From contig NZ_JACHIF010000001.1 in assembly GCF_014203045.1 (NCBI RefSeq), forward strand, positions 1,054,001-1,118,000: 64,000 nucleotides of DNA, in the 5' to 3' direction. The notes beneath the pieces are model-generated. The model ran no database searches. It was not told where the DNA came from and saw only the letters and a list, made by a program, of their open reading frames with translations. The stretch is from Prosthecobacter dejongeii. Its GTDB lineage: Bacteria; Verrucomicrobiota; Verrucomicrobiia; Verrucomicrobiales; Verrucomicrobiaceae. This document shows, one piece after another, positions 15,394-25,785 of the stretch (positions are counted from its first letter, which is position 1; every line of letters starts with the position of its first letter). The position numbers and the translations under genes were made by a program.

Positions 15394-15619
15394 CGGACCT
15401 TTCAGGCTAAGTGCGCTGTGGACCAAGAAGCGCTGTTAGAGCGTTAGTAATCAGCGATTTCTTTACATCGCTCCTATTTTTAGGCCCAGCGCTGGATTGC
15501 GCGACGAAGGGGTGTATTCTTTCGCTCCCCCCAACCCCCTAAGCATTGTCCCCCCAACATAGCTCAGGGCTTGCGCGCTCTGCGTGAGTTCTAGCCGTGT
15601 GCCACCCCCCATTGGCAGC

Positions 15620-18193
15620 ATGCAATCGTCTCCAACCTCCCCGTCCCTTTCTTCCCATCCTCAGCTTCGCGCGAAAAAATCGCGTGGCCTTGTCGGGTGG
15701 TTATCTTGTTTTCTGGCGACTGGCCTGAGTGCTGCAACGCTGCAATATGACAGCGACGGCACGGGCAATATCACAGATGGCAATGCCAGTGGCTGGAACA
15801 CCACAGCGACGAACAAACCCTGGTACGACAGCACCAGCATGACCTATCTGGCGTGGCCGAATACAAATGCGGACATCGCCATTTTCGGGGGTGGGATTTC
15901 TGGCACGGCGGGCTCGGTCGCGGTGGGCAGCGTGATCGCCAACGGCATCCTATTCAATGCACCCTTTGCGGGTAGCTACACGCTTAGCGGAGGAACCATC
16001 ACGCTGGATGGAACAACCCCCACCATCACGGCGAATGTGAATGCCACCATCACCTCCGCGCTGGCGGGCAGCGTGGGCCTAACCAAAAATGGCACAGGCA
16101 CACTGACGCTCTCGGGTGCCGCTGCCAATACCTATGGCGGTGGCACCTCCGTGCTGGCAGGGAATCTCACAATGTCCAAGACCGCCGGCGTCAATGCTGT
16201 GGGTGGAGATGTGATCATCAATGGAGGAACGCTCATCTGGGGCGGAGCCAACCAGGTACCCGATACGGCGAGCGTCACGCTGATCAGCGGTGGATTGCAA
16301 ATCACCGGCAACACGGAAACGATCGCTAACCTAACGATCCAGGGCGGCAACAGCAACGCAAACACTTCCTCCAACGGCGGCCTTTTCACCATCACCAATA
16401 CCCTAGCTATCAATGGCACGGGCAGCCTGGGGTTAAACAGCGCCGGGCAATGGACTGTGAACAAGGCGGACTTCACAGGCGCAGCAGCCTCGGCCTTCGG
16501 CATGACAGGAAATAACAATACCCGCATCACCCAACTGAACATCGGCAGCGGTGGACTGATCCTCTCCGGGCAGAATCTGGCCATCAACAAAGGATCGACG
16601 GCTGCCGCGCTGGGAAGTGAGATCGTTTTTAATGGCGGCGTCACAGCCAGCGGAACCAACAACTTTAATACGGGGGGAACGTTTGGTTCGTCCCGGATCA
16701 GCCTGCCTATCATCAGCACCTGGGACATCACCGCAGGCACGACCAACATCAATGTGGCCACCATTGGCGTGGGGGGACTGATCAAAACGGGCGCAGGAAA
16801 CCTCGCCCTAGCTGGAGCTGAAGCCAATACCCACAGCGGCATGACCACGGTCTCAGGCGGCAGTCTGCTTCTGGGAAAAACCGCCGGAGTAAATGCCATC
16901 GCGGGTGACATCACCGTGGCCACGGGCGGCATCCTGGACTGGAATACAGCCAATCAATTGGCCGATACCACCCACATTTTCCTCATCGGTGGCTCGCTGA
17001 AATTTGACAACCTGACGGAGACCTTTGCCAACTTGACCCAGACCGCTGGCACGGTGAACATCGGCGGCAACACGAACTCGGGCATCGTCAACATCACCGG
17101 CCTGCTGCGTGTCTCTGGAGGCACCTCGATCAACCTCAACAGTGGGGCCATCTGGAGTGTGGGCGGGGCGGATTTCACGGGCTTCTCAGGCACTGTGGTC
17201 TCGCTCAATGGCAATAGCACGACGGGACTCAATCAATTCATCATCGGCAGTGGTGGGCTGATCTTGACAGGGCAATCCATTAACCTCGCCAAGGGCACAG
17301 CAGTAGGGGCCTTTGGCAGCGAGTTGGCCATCAATGGGAATGTGACCGCCAGTGGTACCAATTCCATCAATGCAGGTGCCAACACCATCGGCGTCTCGCA
17401 GGTGAACCTGGGCGCGGCAGACCGCACGTGGAACATCACCAGTGGCACCACCTCCAGCAACTCCAGCGTGGTGAGCAGTGGCGGCGGCATCGTCAAGACT
17501 GGCAATGGCATCCTGGCCCTGAATGCGGCCAACACCTACACCGGCAACACGACGATCAACGAGGGTTCGGTGCGCCTGGGAGCCTCTGCCAGTGTGGACA
17601 ATTCACCCATCATCTCCGTAGCGAGCGGAGCGACGTTTGATGTGGTGGCTGTGACCGGCGGCTACTCCGTCAAAAGCAGCCAACTGCTCCAAGGCGGCGG
17701 CAGTGTGGCCGGGGCGACTACCATCGCCAGCGGTGGCACCCTAGCGCCCGGCACCGTTGGCGGGGATTTTCTGCAGAAGCTCAGCTTCTCCAGCTCACTG
17801 ATTTTGGCCACGGGTTCACAGACTCGACTGCAACTTTCCAACAGCAGTGGTGACTATGACCAGATCGCGGTGACAGGCACGTTCACCCAGCAGACAGGCG
17901 GCCAGATCATCGTGGAACCAGGTGACTTTGTTCCGACAGCTGGACAAAGTTTTAACCTCTTTGACTGGGGAACTCTCGGCTCTCTTTCCTCCAATTTAGG
18001 CAGCAACTACCGGGATGGCAGCGATGACGACGCGACGGACCTGAACCTGCCGAATATCGCAGGCAGCGGTTTCTTCTGGGACATCAGCCAGTTCGCCAGC
18101 AGCGGCATTATCACCGTGGTGGTGCCTGAGCCCTCACGCAGTCTTTTACTCATGATCGCCGGACTGGCGTTGGTGAGCCGCCGCAGGCGTTAA
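15620..18193 (+). CDS. Autotransporter-type beta-strand-repeat protein with PEP-CTERM tag
   Basis: A large exported surface or matrix protein of 857 residues if started at the ATG at 15620 (MQSSPTSPSLSSHPQL). An N-terminal signal region (LVGWLSCFLATGLSAA) is followed by Gly/Ser/Thr/Asn-rich parallel-beta repeats. Two long homologous units are visible (around residues 145-330 and 385-560), each with a TLSGAAANTYGGGTSVLAGN-like motif, KTAGVNAVGGDV and GGLILSGQNLAINKG. A third partial copy begins LALNAANTYTGNTTINEG. These match the autotransporter-associated beta-strand repeat. The C-terminus VPEPSRSLLLMIAGLALVSRRRR is a PEP-CTERM signal: VPEP, one helix, arginine cluster. PEP-CTERM tags are processed by exosortase, which is not encoded in this window. 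A hairpin terminator follows. Confidence 0.9.
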   Translation: MQSSPTSPSLSSHPQLRAKKSRGLVGWLSCFLATGLSAATLQYDSDGTGNITDGNASGWNTTATNKPWYDSTSMTYLAWPNTNADIAIFGGGISGTAGSVAVGSVIANGILFNAPFAGSYTLSGGTITLDGTTPTITANVNATITSALAGSVGLTKNGTGTLTLSGAAANTYGGGTSVLAGNLTMSKTAGVNAVGGDVIINGGTLIWGGANQVPDTASVTLISGGLQITGNTETIANLTIQGGNSNANTSSNGGLFTITNTLAINGTGSLGLNSAGQWTVNKADFTGAAASAFGMTGNNNTRITQLNIGSGGLILSGQNLAINKGSTAAALGSEIVFNGGVTASGTNNFNTGGTFGSSRISLPIISTWDITAGTTNINVATIGVGGLIKTGAGNLALAGAEANTHSGMTTVSGGSLLLGKTAGVNAIAGDITVATGGILDWNTANQLADTTHIFLIGGSLKFDNLTETFANLTQTAGTVNIGGNTNSGIVNITGLLRVSGGTSINLNSGAIWSVGGADFTGFSGTVVSLNGNSTTGLNQFIIGSGGLILTGQSINLAKGTAVGAFGSELAINGNVTASGTNSINAGANTIGVSQVNLGAADRTWNITSGTTSSNSSVVSSGGGIVKTGNGILALNAANTYTGNTTINEGSVRLGASASVDNSPIISVASGATFDVVAVTGGYSVKSSQLLQGGGSVAGATTIASGGTLAPGTVGGDFLQKLSFSSSLILATGSQTRLQLSNSSGDYDQIAVTGTFTQQTGGQIIVEPGDFVPTAGQSFNLFDWGTLGSLSSNLGSNYRDGSDDDATDLNLPNIAGSGFFWDISQFASSGIITVVVPEPSRSLLLMIAGLALVSRRRR

Positions 18194-19871: not shown

Positions 19872-20097
19872 AAGCAGATGGGGAATAAAACCGAGCTCAC
19901 GCTAGGTGATCGGCTTTGGATTGACCAGTGAAAACTCGTTGGTTCACGAAAGCGGCACCCGGATGTCTTTTGACAGGAACCGATGTGATGAGAGACTGAG
20001 GCTTGGATCGTCATGCCGAGATTCAAAGACTGACGATTTCCAAAGCTTTCACATCTTCACTTGCACGTCCCGCACATCTCTCAATCCTCCGCCCCCC

Positions 20098-20964
20098 ATG
20101 TCCACTGTCACCCTCGGCCTCATCCAAGGCACCACGTTCGCTAGCCAGGCTGAAAGCCTCGCCCGCCACGAGGCCTTGATCCGTGATGCCGCAGGCAAGG
20201 GAGCGCAGATCATCTGCCTGCAGGAGCTGTTTAACATCCCGTATTTCTGCACACGGCAGGACACTGCTCTCTTTGATCTGGCCGAGCCGATGCCCGGGCC
20301 AACGACGGACCGCCTAGCGGTGTTGGCCAAGGAACTCGGCGTGGTGATCATTGTGCCGCTGTTTGAGAAACGTGGGCCGGGCCTGTATCACAACACGGTG
20401 GCTGTGCTGGATGCCGACGGCAGCTACCTGGGCAACTACCGGAAGATGCACATCCCGCAGGATCCGGGCTTTGAAGAGAAGTTTTATTTCACGCCTGGGG
20501 ATCTCGGTTACAAAGTCTGGGACACCCAGTTTGGCCGCATCGGCGTGCTGATCTGCTGGGATCAGTGGTACCCCGAGGCAGCGCGCCTCACCGCCCTGGC
20601 TGGAGCACAAATTCTTTTTTACCCCACCGCGATCGGTTGGCTGAGCAGTGAAAAGGCCGAACTGGGCAGCGCCCAGCATTGCGCCTGGGAAACCGTACAG
20701 CGCGGGCATGCCGTTGCCAATGGCTGCTATGTCGCAGCGGTAAACCGCACCGGATTCCAAGATGACACGGAATTCTGGGGCCAAAGTTTTGTGGCGAATC
20801 CTTATGGCGAGATCGTCGCCAAAGGGTCCGTCGAACAAGAAGAAGTGGTGATTGTGACGTGCAATCTCCAGGCGGTGGAGGATTTCCGGCGGATATGGCC
20901 GTTTTTCCGTGATCGCCGCATTGACACTTACGCCCCTCTGACCAAACGCTACCTTGATGAGTAA
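20098..20964 (+). CDS. aguB: N-carbamoylputrescine amidohydrolase
   Basis: Hydrolyses N-carbamoylputrescine to putrescine, CO2 and ammonia, the last step of the agmatine route. The 288-residue protein is a nitrilase-superfamily enzyme with the Glu-Lys-Cys triad visible: Glu43 in CLQELFNIPYFC, Lys116 in NYRKMHIPQDPGF and Cys153 in VLICWDQWYPE. The MHIPQDPGFEEKFYFTPGD stretch and the C-terminal RRIDTYAPLTKRYLDE are characteristic of AguB. The start at 20098 gives the normal N-terminus (MSTVTLGLIQ); earlier in-frame starts add an implausible tail. Its last bases overlap the aguA start by 8 nt, so the two are co-translated. Confidence 0.95.
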   Translation: MSTVTLGLIQGTTFASQAESLARHEALIRDAAGKGAQIICLQELFNIPYFCTRQDTALFDLAEPMPGPTTDRLAVLAKELGVVIIVPLFEKRGPGLYHNTVAVLDADGSYLGNYRKMHIPQDPGFEEKFYFTPGDLGYKVWDTQFGRIGVLICWDQWYPEAARLTALAGAQILFYPTAIGWLSSEKAELGSAQHCAWETVQRGHAVANGCYVAAVNRTGFQDDTEFWGQSFVANPYGEIVAKGSVEQEEVVIVTCNLQAVEDFRRIWPFFRDRRIDTYAPLTKRYLDE

Positions 20965-22003
20965 AGGATACCCGCAGAACTACCACCTTCCCGCCGAATT
21001 CGAAACGCAGGAAGCCATCTGGCTATCATGGCCCTCCAACAAGGAGAGTTGTCCCAAGACCTATCTCAAACTTCAGGATAAGTTTGGAGAGATCGCCGCC
21101 AACCTGACCCGCTACCAGCGTGTGCGCATCAATGCGCCTGAGATGATGCACATGAGCATCCGCCTCAGCATCGCGGATAACGAAGGCGCGCTGAACATGG
21201 TGGACCTCTACAATCACAACACCAACGATGTGTGGTGCCGTGATCATGGACCCATCTTCATCAAGCACAATGAAACCGGCGAAGTGGCCATCACCGACTG
21301 GAATTTCAACGCCTGGGGCGGCAAGTTCCCTTACGACCTCGACAACACCATCCCTGAAAAGGCGGCTGAAGTGCTGAAGATGCAGCGCTTCACCTCTGAC
21401 TTCACCCTGGAAGGTGGCGCCATTGAGACCAATGGCAAAGGCCTGCTCCTCACTACCGAAGCCGTGCTGCTCAACCCGAACCGCAATGGCGGCAAGGCCC
21501 GCACGAAGGCGGAGATGGAAAAAGAGCTGAAGGGCATGCTGGGCGTGAACGACATCGTTTGGTTCAAGGCCGGCATCGAAGGTGATGACACCGACGGTCA
21601 TGTGGATGACATCGTTCGTTTCGTCCGTGAAGACGCGGTGATCTGCATGGTGGAAACCAAGGAGAACGACCCGAACTTCAAGGTGCTGAAGCAGATCCGT
21701 GAGCAACTGGATGACGTACGCACCGCTGATGGTGGTAAGCTGGAGATCATCGAGATCGAAATGCCGAACGCCATCGAAGCCAAGGATTGGCGCCTGAGCC
21801 GCCTCCCTGCGAGCTACGCGAACTTCATGCTGCTGAACAACGCCGTCATGGTCCCCATCTTCGGTCAGAAGAAAAAGGACGCCATCGCGGAAGACAAGAT
21901 CGCCGAGTGTTTCCCAGGTCGCGAGATCATCTCCGTGACGGCTAAGGATCTCGTCATGGAAGGCGGTGCTCTGCACTGCATCGCCATGCATCAGCCGAAG
22001 TAA
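20957..22003 (+). CDS. aguA: Agmatine deiminase
   Basis: Converts agmatine to N-carbamoylputrescine and ammonia, supplying the substrate of AguB. The 348-residue protein is a peptidyl-arginine-deiminase-type enzyme. The catalytic set is visible: NDVWCRDHGPIF, EGGAIETNG, DDTDGHVDDIVRF (Asp/His) and the nucleophile Cys about eight residues from the C-terminus in EGGALHCIAMHQPK. The ATG at 20957 lies inside the aguB stop region, an 8-nt overlap, indicating translational coupling and a dedicated putrescine-producing operon. No arginine decarboxylase gene is seen here, so agmatine must be made elsewhere or imported. A strong terminator follows the gene at 22032. Confidence 0.95.
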   Translation: MSKGYPQNYHLPAEFETQEAIWLSWPSNKESCPKTYLKLQDKFGEIAANLTRYQRVRINAPEMMHMSIRLSIADNEGALNMVDLYNHNTNDVWCRDHGPIFIKHNETGEVAITDWNFNAWGGKFPYDLDNTIPEKAAEVLKMQRFTSDFTLEGGAIETNGKGLLLTTEAVLLNPNRNGGKARTKAEMEKELKGMLGVNDIVWFKAGIEGDDTDGHVDDIVRFVREDAVICMVETKENDPNFKVLKQIREQLDDVRTADGGKLEIIEIEMPNAIEAKDWRLSRLPASYANFMLLNNAVMVPIFGQKKKDAIAEDKIAECFPGREIISVTAKDLVMEGGALHCIAMHQPK

Positions 22004-22031
22004 GAGGCGTCAGCAAACGGGTTCCTTTTGG

Positions 22032-22062
22032 AAAGCCAGCCTGGTTTCAGGCTGGCTTTTTG
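22032..22062 (+). terminator. Rho-independent terminator of aguBA
   Basis: AAAGCCAGCCTG-GTTT-CAGGCTGGCTTT forms a perfect 12-bp stem with a 4-base loop and runs into TTTT on the plus strand, 28 bp after the aguA stop. The stop codon of the convergent gene (22047-22049) lies in its loop region, and the A-rich left arm gives the minus strand a T-run, so it can act in both directions. Confidence 0.9.
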
Positions 22063-24056
22063 ATGTCTTTGTCACCCGCCAATTGGCGGGTGACAAAGGC
22101 GGATTTGGCCGCCCGGTTAAAGGGAATCGTCATCATGGCAAACCAAGGGCCCACGATGCGCGCCAGAGGCCCCTGGAGGATGATGTGGCGCAGAAGTGCA
22201 TCTCTCACCCAAGAAAGTCCCTTCCCACGCCAGGTGCCCAGCCCCATCCCCAAGGCAGCGCGGGTCGCGGCCGTATTGGAGGCCTGACGGCGGCAGCGGT
22301 CATACTCCGCCAACCAAGAGCAGACTGGCTGGCCATGGCGCAGAATGGCATGCAGCATCAACGCGGCAAACTCGGCATCGGCAAAGCCTGTGTTCATGCC
22401 TTGACCACCGATGGGGCTCATGACATGGGCCGCATCTCCACAGAGGATGATACGGCCATCGTAGAGCTGCTCACAGTCCAGCCGCCAGGGTGAAAAGCTG
22501 CTTTGATTGAGCTGATCTTCCGGCGCAATGACCTGACCAGAGCGCAGGCGCACAACTTCACTGATGAAGCCCTGCGGCGGGTCAGTCTCAGGTTGGCGCG
22601 TCTGCACGATCCAGCGTCGCAGCCCTCCGGGCAGGGGGAAGCTTTCCACCGCGCCCTGGGCTGTGAAGTAGAGATGCGCCTCCGCACCCAGAGTTGTACG
22701 ATCAACGAAATCCCCCATGATAAAATCATGCCCATAGTCATGCCGTGTGGTGCGCAGGCGCAGGAGATCCCGCACGCGGCTGCGGTGCCCATCACAGCCG
22801 ACCGCATAAGCAGCCCGGAGCGTCGTGAGGGTGCCGGCTTCATCCTTCACGGTCACGGAGACTTCGTGGTCCGTTTGGTCCAGCTCCACCACCTCCACCC
22901 CACGCTGGAGGGTGACCGAGGGATAAGTGGCCAGTTTCTCTGCCAAAAGAGCCATGCTGATCTGCTGCGGCAAAGACAGCACGAAAGGGTAGGGGCCGGG
23001 GATCTCGCGAAAAGAAGCGATGCCCGTAGGACCACTCTGGCCATGGACGTGGCAGTCACGAATGGGCAGACCATGCTGGATAAAGGCCTGATCCAGCCCC
23101 AGCTCCGCCAAAATGGCCAGCGTGGGCGGGGTGATTCCGATGGCCTGCGAATGAGTGGGCAGACCGGTGCGGCGCTCCAGCACCCTCACCCGCATACCGC
23201 GCGCGCCTAGCAAGCAACCCAAAGCCATGCCGATGGGCCCCCCGCCGATGAGGATGACCTCGGCATCGTGAGCCTGAGAAAGGGAGGGAGAACTCATACG
23301 GTGACGCTGGCGACCAGGGAACCAATACGGCACCCGGGCCTGATAGCGAGCATACGCCTGCCCATAAAAACGCAGGTAACGTTTCTCCTTCCACACGGGT
23401 GCTCCAACGCAGTATCCGGTCCATACCAGCGCAATGAAGAGGTGATCTGGCGTCCAGACCGGAGCCGTCCACAAGATGAGGGTGAAGGCAGAATAAATGG
23501 GCTGGCGGCTGTAACGAAACAGGCCTGTGCGACTGAAGGGACGATACACTGGCGCATGCCCGCGCCAGACGGAGCGCCAGCCGATGCTACCAATCTGCAC
23601 ATCCAGCCCCGCATCCCGCATGGACTTGGCCAGCAATACCCAGGATAAGCCGTAGATGACGCTCAAAGTACCTTTGAGCCAGCCTTCCGGTGCCGCCCAG
23701 AGGACCTCTGAAGAAGACCAGAACAGGAAAGTCACCAGCAACTGCAAAGAGGCCAGCCCTGCAAAGATGGTGGTGGAAAGCTCACGCCCGAGACCCAAGG
23801 GAGCCAAGCGCGCCATCCAGCGGCGACCTTTGTCCGAAAGCAGCAGAGAGTGCCCCAGACCAAACTGGAGCACCAGGAGCCCATCATTCATCGCGGCTGC
23901 CCAGCCATGCAGATGCAGCAAACTAAACTGCAACCCCTGGTACAGGCTGACAAACATGACGCCGACAGACGCCAGGAATAAGGAATGACTGACGAGCCCA
24001 TACAACAGCGCCACCTGGCGCTGTGCTGGGGTGTAAGAAACAGGTGCTGTGCCCAT
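22047..24056 (-). CDS. Fused membrane methyltransferase - FAD-dependent hydroxylase (SrsB-SrsC-like)
   Basis: A 669-residue fusion. Residues 1-250 are an isoprenylcysteine-carboxylmethyltransferase/NnrU-like membrane domain with about six hydrophobic helices and the motif RHAP-like segment FSRTGLFRYSRQPIYSAFTL then KEKRYLRFYGQAYARY, which binds S-adenosylmethionine in that family. After a short linker, residue 254 onward is a class A flavin monooxygenase: AEVILIGGGPIGMALGCLLG (FAD dinucleotide site), AVGCDGHRSRVRDLL (DG motif) and GRIILCGDAAHVMSPIGGQGMN (GD motif). The gene starts 5 bp after a type III polyketide synthase gene. In Streptomyces griseus the srsA-srsB-srsC operon encodes the same three activities as separate proteins making methylated phenolic lipids; here B and C are fused. 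The methyltransferase substrate is inferred. Confidence 0.85.
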   Translation of the reverse strand: MGTAPVSYTPAQRQVALLYGLVSHSLFLASVGVMFVSLYQGLQFSLLHLHGWAAAMNDGLLVLQFGLGHSLLLSDKGRRWMARLAPLGLGRELSTTIFAGLASLQLLVTFLFWSSSEVLWAAPEGWLKGTLSVIYGLSWVLLAKSMRDAGLDVQIGSIGWRSVWRGHAPVYRPFSRTGLFRYSRQPIYSAFTLILWTAPVWTPDHLFIALVWTGYCVGAPVWKEKRYLRFYGQAYARYQARVPYWFPGRQRHRMSSPSLSQAHDAEVILIGGGPIGMALGCLLGARGMRVRVLERRTGLPTHSQAIGITPPTLAILAELGLDQAFIQHGLPIRDCHVHGQSGPTGIASFREIPGPYPFVLSLPQQISMALLAEKLATYPSVTLQRGVEVVELDQTDHEVSVTVKDEAGTLTTLRAAYAVGCDGHRSRVRDLLRLRTTRHDYGHDFIMGDFVDRTTLGAEAHLYFTAQGAVESFPLPGGLRRWIVQTRQPETDPPQGFISEVVRLRSGQVIAPEDQLNQSSFSPWRLDCEQLYDGRIILCGDAAHVMSPIGGQGMNTGFADAEFAALMLHAILRHGQPVCSWLAEYDRCRRQASNTAATRAALGMGLGTWRGKGLSWVRDALLRHIILQGPLARIVGPWFAMMTIPFNRAAKSAFVTRQLAGDKDIKKPA
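22067..22098. repeat. Perfect 32-bp palindrome in the 3' end of the fusion gene
   Basis: The 32 bases at 22067-22098 read identically on both strands: arms CTTTGTCACCCGCCAA and TTGGCGGGTGACAAAG meet with no spacer. It encodes the last residues (FVTRQLAGD) of the fused methyltransferase/hydroxylase and lies immediately beyond the aguBA terminator. A second, cruciform-capable terminator or a protein-binding site are both possible. Confidence 0.85.
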
Positions 24057-24061
24057 GGGAA

Positions 24062-25210
24062 CTAGGTTTGCAGGCTTTCCGCCGTGGGCAGATGAACGGC
24101 AGCCCGGCAGCCAATCCGTTCCAGCAGGGCCGTCTCCACGGTGAGACCAGGCCCAAAAGCCATGGCACAGAGAGTGGCATGATCTGTTTCCGCTGAGTCG
24201 AGCATCTCTTTCAGCACAAACAGGATGGTGGCGCTGCTCATGTTCCCATAGTCTCGCAGGATGGTGCGTGAGGCCTCCAGAGCTTCAGGCCGGAGGGCTA
24301 GGCTCTCCTGGACTTTATCCAAGATGGAACGGCCCCCGGGATGCACAGCCCATTCCTGCATGGAGTCCACCTTGCAGCCCTGGCGGCCCAAAATGCCATT
24401 GAGCAACTGGCGGATGTTTCCCCCGATGATGTCCGGAACGTAACTGGAGAGGACAATGTTAAATCCCTCATTGCCGATTTCCCAGGCCATTTCGGATTCA
24501 CTGGAGGGAACGAGGGCTGACTCAAAACCCCGCAGCAAGTAAGCAGGCTTTTTATTCATCGGTGATCGTGCACTAACGACCGCCGCTGCCGCACCATCCG
24601 CGAACAAAGAGTTCGCCAAAATGCTGTCGTGATGATCATTGATCTGCATGTGCAGCGTGCAGAGTTCCAGGCAAATGACCAGCACCACAGCCTGCGGATC
24701 GGCCTCGCAAAACTGCGCGGCCATGCGTAGCGCAGGAAAGGCCGCGTAGCAGCCCATGAACCCCAGCGTGTAGCGTTGTACATTCTCCCGCAGGCCTAGC
24801 TCCCGGATAACGTGGTAATCTGGCCCTGGATTGGCAAAGCCGGTGCAAGAGGTGTAGATGATGTGGGTGACGTCTTGCTTCTCAAACCCTGGTGTATCCG
24901 CCAAAGCCCGGCGGGCCACATCCACCGAGAGCTCCCGCGCACAGTGCGTGTAAACGCGATTACGCTCCGCCGTGCCGGGTGGAATGAGGCGCCCCTCCGC
25001 ATCACTGCGGTATAGGCTAGCCTCCGACCCCATGACAAAATCTCCCGTCACACTATGCCGCGTCTCGATGCCGCTGCGATTGTAAATGGCGTGGATGAGG
25101 CGCTTGGTTTTCGGATCCACGGCCCAGTCCTTGAGACGATCTCGCGTATAAGCCTGACTGTAAGTGTAGGCAGGATTACCGGTGGCGATGTGATGAATGT
25201 AAGCAGGCAT
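24062..25210 (-). CDS. Type III polyketide synthase (chalcone/alkylresorcinol synthase-like)
   Basis: A 382-residue homodimeric condensing enzyme of the thiolase fold. The catalytic triad is visible: Cys154 in LGFMGCYAAFPALRM, His290 in WAVHPGGRSILDK and Asn323 in DYGNMSSATILFVL. SCTGFANPGPD and ADGAAAAVV are further family marks. Such enzymes extend an acyl-CoA starter with malonyl-CoA and cyclise the product to alkylresorcinols or alkylpyrones. The downstream fused methyltransferase/FAD hydroxylase (5 bp gap) suggests a methylated and hydroxylated phenolic lipid or pyrone. The upstream YceI-type lipid-binding gene is also 5 bp away, making a tight three-gene operon. The starter unit cannot be predicted by eye. 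Confidence 0.95.
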   Translation of the reverse strand: MPAYIHHIATGNPAYTYSQAYTRDRLKDWAVDPKTKRLIHAIYNRSGIETRHSVTGDFVMGSEASLYRSDAEGRLIPPGTAERNRVYTHCARELSVDVARRALADTPGFEKQDVTHIIYTSCTGFANPGPDYHVIRELGLRENVQRYTLGFMGCYAAFPALRMAAQFCEADPQAVVLVICLELCTLHMQINDHHDSILANSLFADGAAAAVVSARSPMNKKPAYLLRGFESALVPSSESEMAWEIGNEGFNIVLSSYVPDIIGGNIRQLLNGILGRQGCKVDSMQEWAVHPGGRSILDKVQESLALRPEALEASRTILRDYGNMSSATILFVLKEMLDSAETDHATLCAMAFGPGLTVETALLERIGCRAAVHLPTAESLQT

Positions 25211-25215
25211 GGAAA

Positions 25216-25785
25216 TCAGGGCTGGGTGAGGGTGACGCTGGCATGTACCTTCACGGCATCGCCCACGCGGATGAGTAACAGAACCGACGGCACCTCAATG
25301 CCACTGGCCTTGAGAGATACGTCGAAGTCCAGGTCGAAGGTGGCTTTCTTACCCACAAGCTTCCATTGGCTGATGCGGCCCTGGACGCTCTGCTCTTTGC
25401 CTAGAAGCTTCAACTTCATGGGTAAAGTCGAAGGGGTCTTGCCATCCTGAGAGACTTCACCCACAGCGGCATCTATCGCGGCTTCGATCAACGGATACTC
25501 CGTCACTTTCATGGCCTTGCGCATGTTTTCATCGCGCTTCGGTTCAGCCGTGTCCATGGCCTTAGCAGAGACGGTGACCTTGGCAGAAATCTGCGTGGGA
25601 GCACCTGCGGCATCGGAGACCACAACGGTGGTGAAAGGCTGGGCGGCTACCTGTCCTGCCCAATCATGGAGCGTGGAAGTGCCCGCAAAGGTGATGGCGG
25701 CAGTGCCTGCCCAATTCGCACGACTTTGTGCAAAAACAGGATGCGCAAAACAAAGCGTTAAAAACAAACAACAACGTAAAAGCAT
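25216..25785 (-). CDS. YceI-family periplasmic lipid-binding-like protein
   Basis: A 189-residue exported protein (signal peptide MLLRCCLFLTLCFAHPVFAQ). It has the YceI-like beta-barrel pattern: FAGTSTLHDWAGQV, ISAKVTVSAKAMDTAEPKRDENMRKAMKV, YPLIEAAIDAAVGEV, and a C-terminal SVLLLIRVGDAVKVHASVTLT. YceI relatives hold polyprenyl or fatty lipids in a lipocalin-like cavity. As first gene of the operon with a type III polyketide synthase and the fused tailoring enzyme, it could bind or carry the phenolic lipid product in the periplasm; that is inference. The ribosome-binding site before the ATG is weak. Confidence 0.85.
   Translation of the reverse strand: MLLRCCLFLTLCFAHPVFAQSRANWAGTAAITFAGTSTLHDWAGQVAAQPFTTVVVSDAAGAPTQISAKVTVSAKAMDTAEPKRDENMRKAMKVTEYPLIEAAIDAAVGEVSQDGKTPSTLPMKLKLLGKEQSVQGRISQWKLVGKKATFDLDFDVSLKASGIEVPSVLLLIRVGDAVKVHASVTLTQP

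Follow-up and report, generated by a model that had tools for sequence, protein, structure and literature searches.

Polyketide quinones are made in Mycobacterium and Streptomyces by the joint action of a type III polyketide synthase (PKS), a methyltransferase and an FAD-dependent hydroxylase (PMC9927152). These three activities are encoded as separate proteins in one operon, srsA-srsB-srsC in Streptomyces griseus and pkqA-C in Mycobacterium smegmatis and Streptomyces MNU77 (PMC9927152, PMC6669644), and the same activities are found in hidABC of cyanobacteria (PMC8086630) and in a planctomycete methyltransferase-oxidoreductase-PKS operon (PMC10896814). It was reported that, with C. glutamicum as host, alkylresorcinols are formed by the planctomycete synthases of related operons; what the planctomycete oxidoreductase does was not settled in that host, which counts against the explanation favored below (PMC10896814). 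A gene for a lipid/isoprenoid-binding protein beside a type III PKS gene was already noted in the five-gene operon of 'Saltatorellus ferox' (PMC10896814).

An operon with the same reaction logic is present in Prosthecobacter dejongeii, within the stretch of 64,000 nucleotides analyzed here (the window; contig NZ_JACHIF010000001.1, positions 1,054,001 to 1,118,000). The PKS, the methyltransferase-like domain and the FAD hydroxylase are co-encoded as in srs, pkq and hid, but not as three separate proteins: the two tailoring activities are fused. The operon further differs from srs and pkq in its additional YceI gene and its host phylum, and from hidABC and the planctomycete operon in gene order. 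Its features, in window positions, are as follows:

25216..25785, minus strand: YceI-family protein, a putative periplasmic lipid binder, 189 aa, with a PF04264 match and a hydrophobic N-terminus
24062..25210, minus strand: type III polyketide synthase, 382 aa, with Pfam CHS N- and C-terminal domains
22047..24056, minus strand: fused putative membrane methyltransferase-flavin hydroxylase, 669 aa, one unbroken frame, AlphaFold mean pLDDT 81
23292..24056, minus strand: domain 1 of the fusion (residues 1-255), integral-membrane methyltransferase-like domain of the MddA/ICMT superfamily, with an NCBIfam MddA match
23271..23318, minus strand: linker (residues 247-262), overlapping both domain spans and holding Met256
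22047..23285, minus strand: domain 2 of the fusion (residues 258-669), class A FAD-dependent aromatic hydroxylase, PF01494 E 2e-48
22028..22063, no strand assigned: hairpin with a 16-pair stem and a T tail on the plus strand, extending over the final codons of the fusion gene

The genes follow one another on the minus strand in the order YceI, synthase and fusion, and both intergenic gaps are exactly 5 bp. The sequence-only reading had described this anatomy and taken the locus for a phenolic-lipid operon in which two of the three srs activities share one protein. The coordinates, gaps and Pfam domains agree with the former, and the co-encoded activities support the latter. P. dejongeii has a single type III PKS gene in its genome and a single copy of the fusion gene. 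The upstream ORF P137 (25866-26279) is present at L031 and absent at the other loci, and was left out of the operon. The hairpin lies between the operon and a convergent agmatine deiminase-like gene and is probably a terminator common to both; shuffled sequences yield comparable numbers of weaker hairpins, so that the long stem alone is noteworthy. Beyond it, at 19906-22003, a carbon-nitrogen hydrolase gene shares 11 bp with a peptidyl-arginine-deiminase-like gene; the two likely encode the N-carbamoylputrescine amidase and the agmatine deiminase of putrescine synthesis. A repeat-rich surface protein of 869 aa with a PEP-CTERM-like tail at its end is encoded at 15584-18193.

The reading that we prefer, with a probability of roughly 0.6, is that the product of the operon is a phenolic lipid of the membrane, namely an alkylresorcinol that is methylated and hydroxylated by the fusion protein and bound by YceI. 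The substrate, reaction order, quinone end product and role of YceI that we infer would be as follows. The type III synthase would extend a fatty acyl starter and close the ring to give a 5-alkylresorcinol. The N-terminal membrane domain would transfer a methyl group from S-adenosylmethionine to the membrane-embedded ring, the C-terminal flavin domain would hydroxylate the ring to a methylated alkyl-hydroquinone that could be oxidized to the benzoquinone, and periplasmic YceI would bind or carry the lipid. The fusion would tether the soluble hydroxylase at the membrane beside the methyltransferase, and such tethering would explain the fusion without any need for channeling.

The synthase belongs to the type III PKSs, with CHS-like N- and C-terminal domains and the Cys-His-Asn triad, which was correctly recognized as intact from the sequence (C154/H290/N323) and is unchanged in all 53 related synthases. 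PKS18 is the nearest solved structure, followed by Steely1. W243 occupies the site of cyclization specificity (the CHS 256 position); this residue is tryptophan in 52 of the 53 aligned synthases and leucine in PKS18. The mapping is based on a gap-free alignment to PKS18 from W243 on, which places H290 on PKS18 H313, and on the spacing of nine residues between G284 and M293 of ArsC, the same as between CHS 256 and 265. It was reported that tryptophan at this site (ArsB W281) favors resorcinols and glycine there favors pyrones (PMC6274091). The aromatic residue is that expected of an alkylresorcinol rather than an alkylpyrone synthase; the residue pattern thus favors resorcinols as products, and pyrone formation by a bps-like operon, as in Bacillus, is disfavored by W243.

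The YceI protein scores 35.2 bits against PF04264 (cut-off 23.7) and begins with a hydrophobic, signal-like segment, and thus shows both the family match and the export signal of the YceI lipocalins BcnA and GNA1030, likewise exported members of a lipid-quinone binding family (PMC9113575). Unlike these, it is encoded together with a type III PKS, and its similarity to solved YceI proteins is weak (1wub, E 0.2). YceI proteins bind or carry ubiquinone-8 (PMC9113575), and by analogy a role as lipid carrier is plausible. The YceI gene lies directly upstream of the synthase gene in 25 of the 25 fused loci (described below) with enough sequence.

Wider clusters were found in distant relatives. Most Kiritimatiellota-type loci contain a response regulator and histidine kinase, YceI, the PKS, and an MMPL transporter or a small unknown protein, and the same clusters also contain the methyltransferase and FAD domains (fused or not), a UbiE-like methylase and a PRK06202-type methyltransferase. 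The UbiE-like methylase of L113 reaches 160 bits, just above the MenG/UbiE subfamily cut-off. The response regulator and HAMP histidine kinase adjoin the YceI-PKS cluster in most of these loci with enough sequence (L113:2717-4452, L097:7322-9147, L093:298-2152, L090:10105-11861 and similar pairs), and the pair is absent at the Verrucomicrobiaceae loci. The type III PKS operons of Deinococcus and of Paludisphaera encode an FAD oxidoreductase along with a PRK06202-type methyltransferase; in the loci inspected the latter is class I, soluble and unfused, whereas the putative methyltransferase of the window operon is of membrane type and fused. In some relatives, L036 for example, the fusion gene is followed by a methyltransferase-like gene; the window genome has a 65% homologue of it, unlinked to the operon (C12:83023-83667; L134:7024-7674). 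This putative methyltransferase-like gene has no Pfam match, and the ORF before it, considered as a ketosynthase, is not one.

The UbiE-like methylase, second methyltransferase and two-component system of the distant relatives favor a methylated alkyl-(hydro)quinone. A quinone product is suggested by analogy with pkq and srs (PMC9927152) and by these UbiE-like neighbors, which belong to the distant relatives; UbiE and the second methyltransferase are absent from the window operon itself. As a tentative extension, a polyketide quinone in these Gram-negatives may be an alternative electron carrier or a periplasmic antioxidant held on YceI, its ring completed by the bifunctional membrane enzyme and its synthesis under two-component control of its own in Kiritimatiellota-type genomes. 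It is less probable that the end product is a hierridin-type methylated and hydroxylated phenolic lipid, with an allelochemical, antioxidant or structural role, rather than a redox quinone, and that YceI only shuttles it. Such a product would agree with the use of the same activities by hidABC and the planctomycete operons (PMC8086630, PMC10896814) and with the alkylresorcinols of Azotobacter, which are reported to be structural cyst lipids (PMC4824345), but the UbiE/MenG-like methylase of the wider cluster and a partner from a quinone-binding family point to quinone chemistry.

The N-terminal half of the fusion had been read as an SrsB-type methyltransferase, an assignment that has to be revised. 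The curated family closest to it is MddA, methanethiol S-methyltransferase (NF045656), whose profile is matched by all 14 members (best E 4e-31), whereas ICMT (PF04140) matches only one of the 14, at E 0.1 and short of the Pfam cut-off; SrsB, in comparison, is annotated as ICMT. The window domain matches MddA over nearly its full length (E 1.2e-20), but its 73.9 bits do not reach the curated cut-off of 270, so that it is a homologue only, and an annotated mddA is 31% identical to the membrane half. This distance, together with its place in a polyketide operon, joined to a hydroxylase, leads us to expect a substrate other than that of MddA. Modeled alone, the domain has a pLDDT of 88, and its structural matches (sterol reductase Z 10.9, ICMTs 9.9, overall Z 9-11) are suggestive only, as helical matches in this range. 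Identity as an ICMT or a sterol reductase was rejected, since the sequence profiles favor MddA-like methyltransferases, although the fold alone is not decisive. Fold and profiles together indicate that the N-terminal half probably belongs to the membrane methyltransferase superfamily. Fused members carry RQPIY in place of RHPxY and KEKR or KERR at the paired-Glu SAM motif (KE for EE), and the unfused L097 and L098 have RHPMY; owing to these replacements, Gln for His and KE for EE, the methyltransferase activity could differ. The replaced RHPxY motif, the near tie between sterol reductase and ICMTs in the structural ranking and the lack of any Pfam match above cut-off for this half could also mean that the domain does not methylate, being instead a degenerate or reductase-like member of the ICMT/sterol-reductase fold and chiefly a membrane anchor for the hydroxylase. 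This is improbable, because the curated families matched are methyltransferases (E 1e-20 to 4e-31 for MddA) and the domain is under strong purifying selection with many invariant residues.

The C-terminal half is a class A flavoprotein aromatic hydroxylase. FAD_binding_3 (PF01494) spans residues 265-598 of the 669-aa protein, and the GxGxxG, CDG and GDAAH motifs, which include the GxGxxG, DG and GD signatures of the class, are invariant. Its best fold match is the para-hydroxylating p-nitrophenol monooxygenase PnpA, and polyketide hydroxylases are also close.

Loci were drawn from 96 relatives, a phylum-wide sample of 387 genomes and a named-genome scan, and Brevifollis gellanilyticus L110, which is the same locus as L040, was counted once. 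The full-length fusion without a stop was found in 16 of the 96 genomes, the window's own included, and locus-by-locus mapping revealed one open frame in each; with the larger samples the count is 26 non-redundant fused loci, 17 in Verrucomicrobiaceae and nine outside (Kiritimatiellales-type lineages and one unassigned MAG, L113). Fusions added by the larger scans include those in Verrucomicrobium sp. BvORR106, the Kiritimatiellales MAGs and L113. The unbroken methyltransferase-hydroxylase frame of the sequence-only reading therefore stands, and the search in other genomes that it recommended recovered the fusion at 25 further loci; an assembly artefact or frameshift is ruled out, as the frame is open in all 26 loci and no full-length relative contains a stop. 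The named-genome profile scan used a single peptide pattern and says nothing on absence of the fusion outside Verrucomicrobiota, and a single-protein scan of genome contigs gave no match. The methyltransferase and hydroxylase are separate genes at four loci, and 23 loci, all in Verrucomicrobiaceae, are without the membrane domain. The fusion is conserved across several Verrucomicrobiota lineages and is old. Broken frames were seen in the hydroxylase at L050:5899-6931 and in the synthase at L049:4820-5853, either by decay or by draft-assembly error.

Both halves of the fusion are under strong purifying selection, with dN/dS of about 0.06-0.16; dN is 0.03-0.24 against dS of 0.45-2.1 in both domains (Nei-Gojobori, window vs. 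L031-L034), dS values above 1 being saturated. The linker is mostly relaxed: in most pairs its dN exceeds the domain values severalfold, and its pLDDT falls below 50 at residues 247-252. Distances of the methyltransferase and FAD halves correlate over the 26 fused rows with r 0.87, shared species history included, and none of 2000 permutations gave a value as high, which fits joint inheritance. An internal start at linker Met256, giving a free hydroxylase as a second product, is very improbable: a linker Met, possibly the old start codon, is found in most closely related fusions, but it is missing in several relatives (L039-L045), and no ribosome-binding-like sequence precedes Met256, although such a sequence is not evident ahead of the remaining starts in the operon either.

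Based on phylogenetic analysis of the FAD domain, with trees rooted at the midpoint only, loci without the membrane domain are scattered among the fused ones (L046 and L066 with L108, L068 with L041 and L042, L051 within L035-L040), and the starred branches alone require at least six changes of the fused label. In the methyltransferase tree the fused members stand apart from the separate ones, one unfused row excepted, with moderate support. Genomes lacking the membrane domain at the locus have no second copy elsewhere at E 1e-30. The simplest reading of these trees would be one fusion followed by repeated loss of the membrane domain; transfer could also account for the pattern. The 23 Verrucomicrobiaceae loci without it indicate that hydroxylation does not require the fusion and that the core of the pathway can do without the membrane domain. 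In many of them a 282-aa soluble class I, cyclopropane-synthase-like SAM methyltransferase is encoded 3-5 bp after the hydroxylase gene (L057:6602-7450, L061:4890-5738; also L058, L059, L062, L064, L054 and L067). The fused L038 and L042 also carry the 282-aa gene, upstream, so that replacement is not strict. A FabF-like ketosynthase in or near many clusters without the membrane domain (L052:5031-6314, L070:7235-8494) might supply the fatty acyl starter.

Among openly available papers, none was found that reports the fusion, the MddA-like domain or YceI with a type III PKS. The pathway type is known; new with respect to these papers are the fused tailoring enzyme, its MddA-like domain and, as a unit conserved within this phylum, the pairing with YceI. 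Since natural relatives have the two halves of this conserved bifunctional enzyme joined, apart or in part absent, the effect of fusion can be examined by comparison across species, and the link of type III polyketides to YceI and UbiE-like quinone methylases opens to direct test whether polyketide quinones occur outside Actinobacteria.
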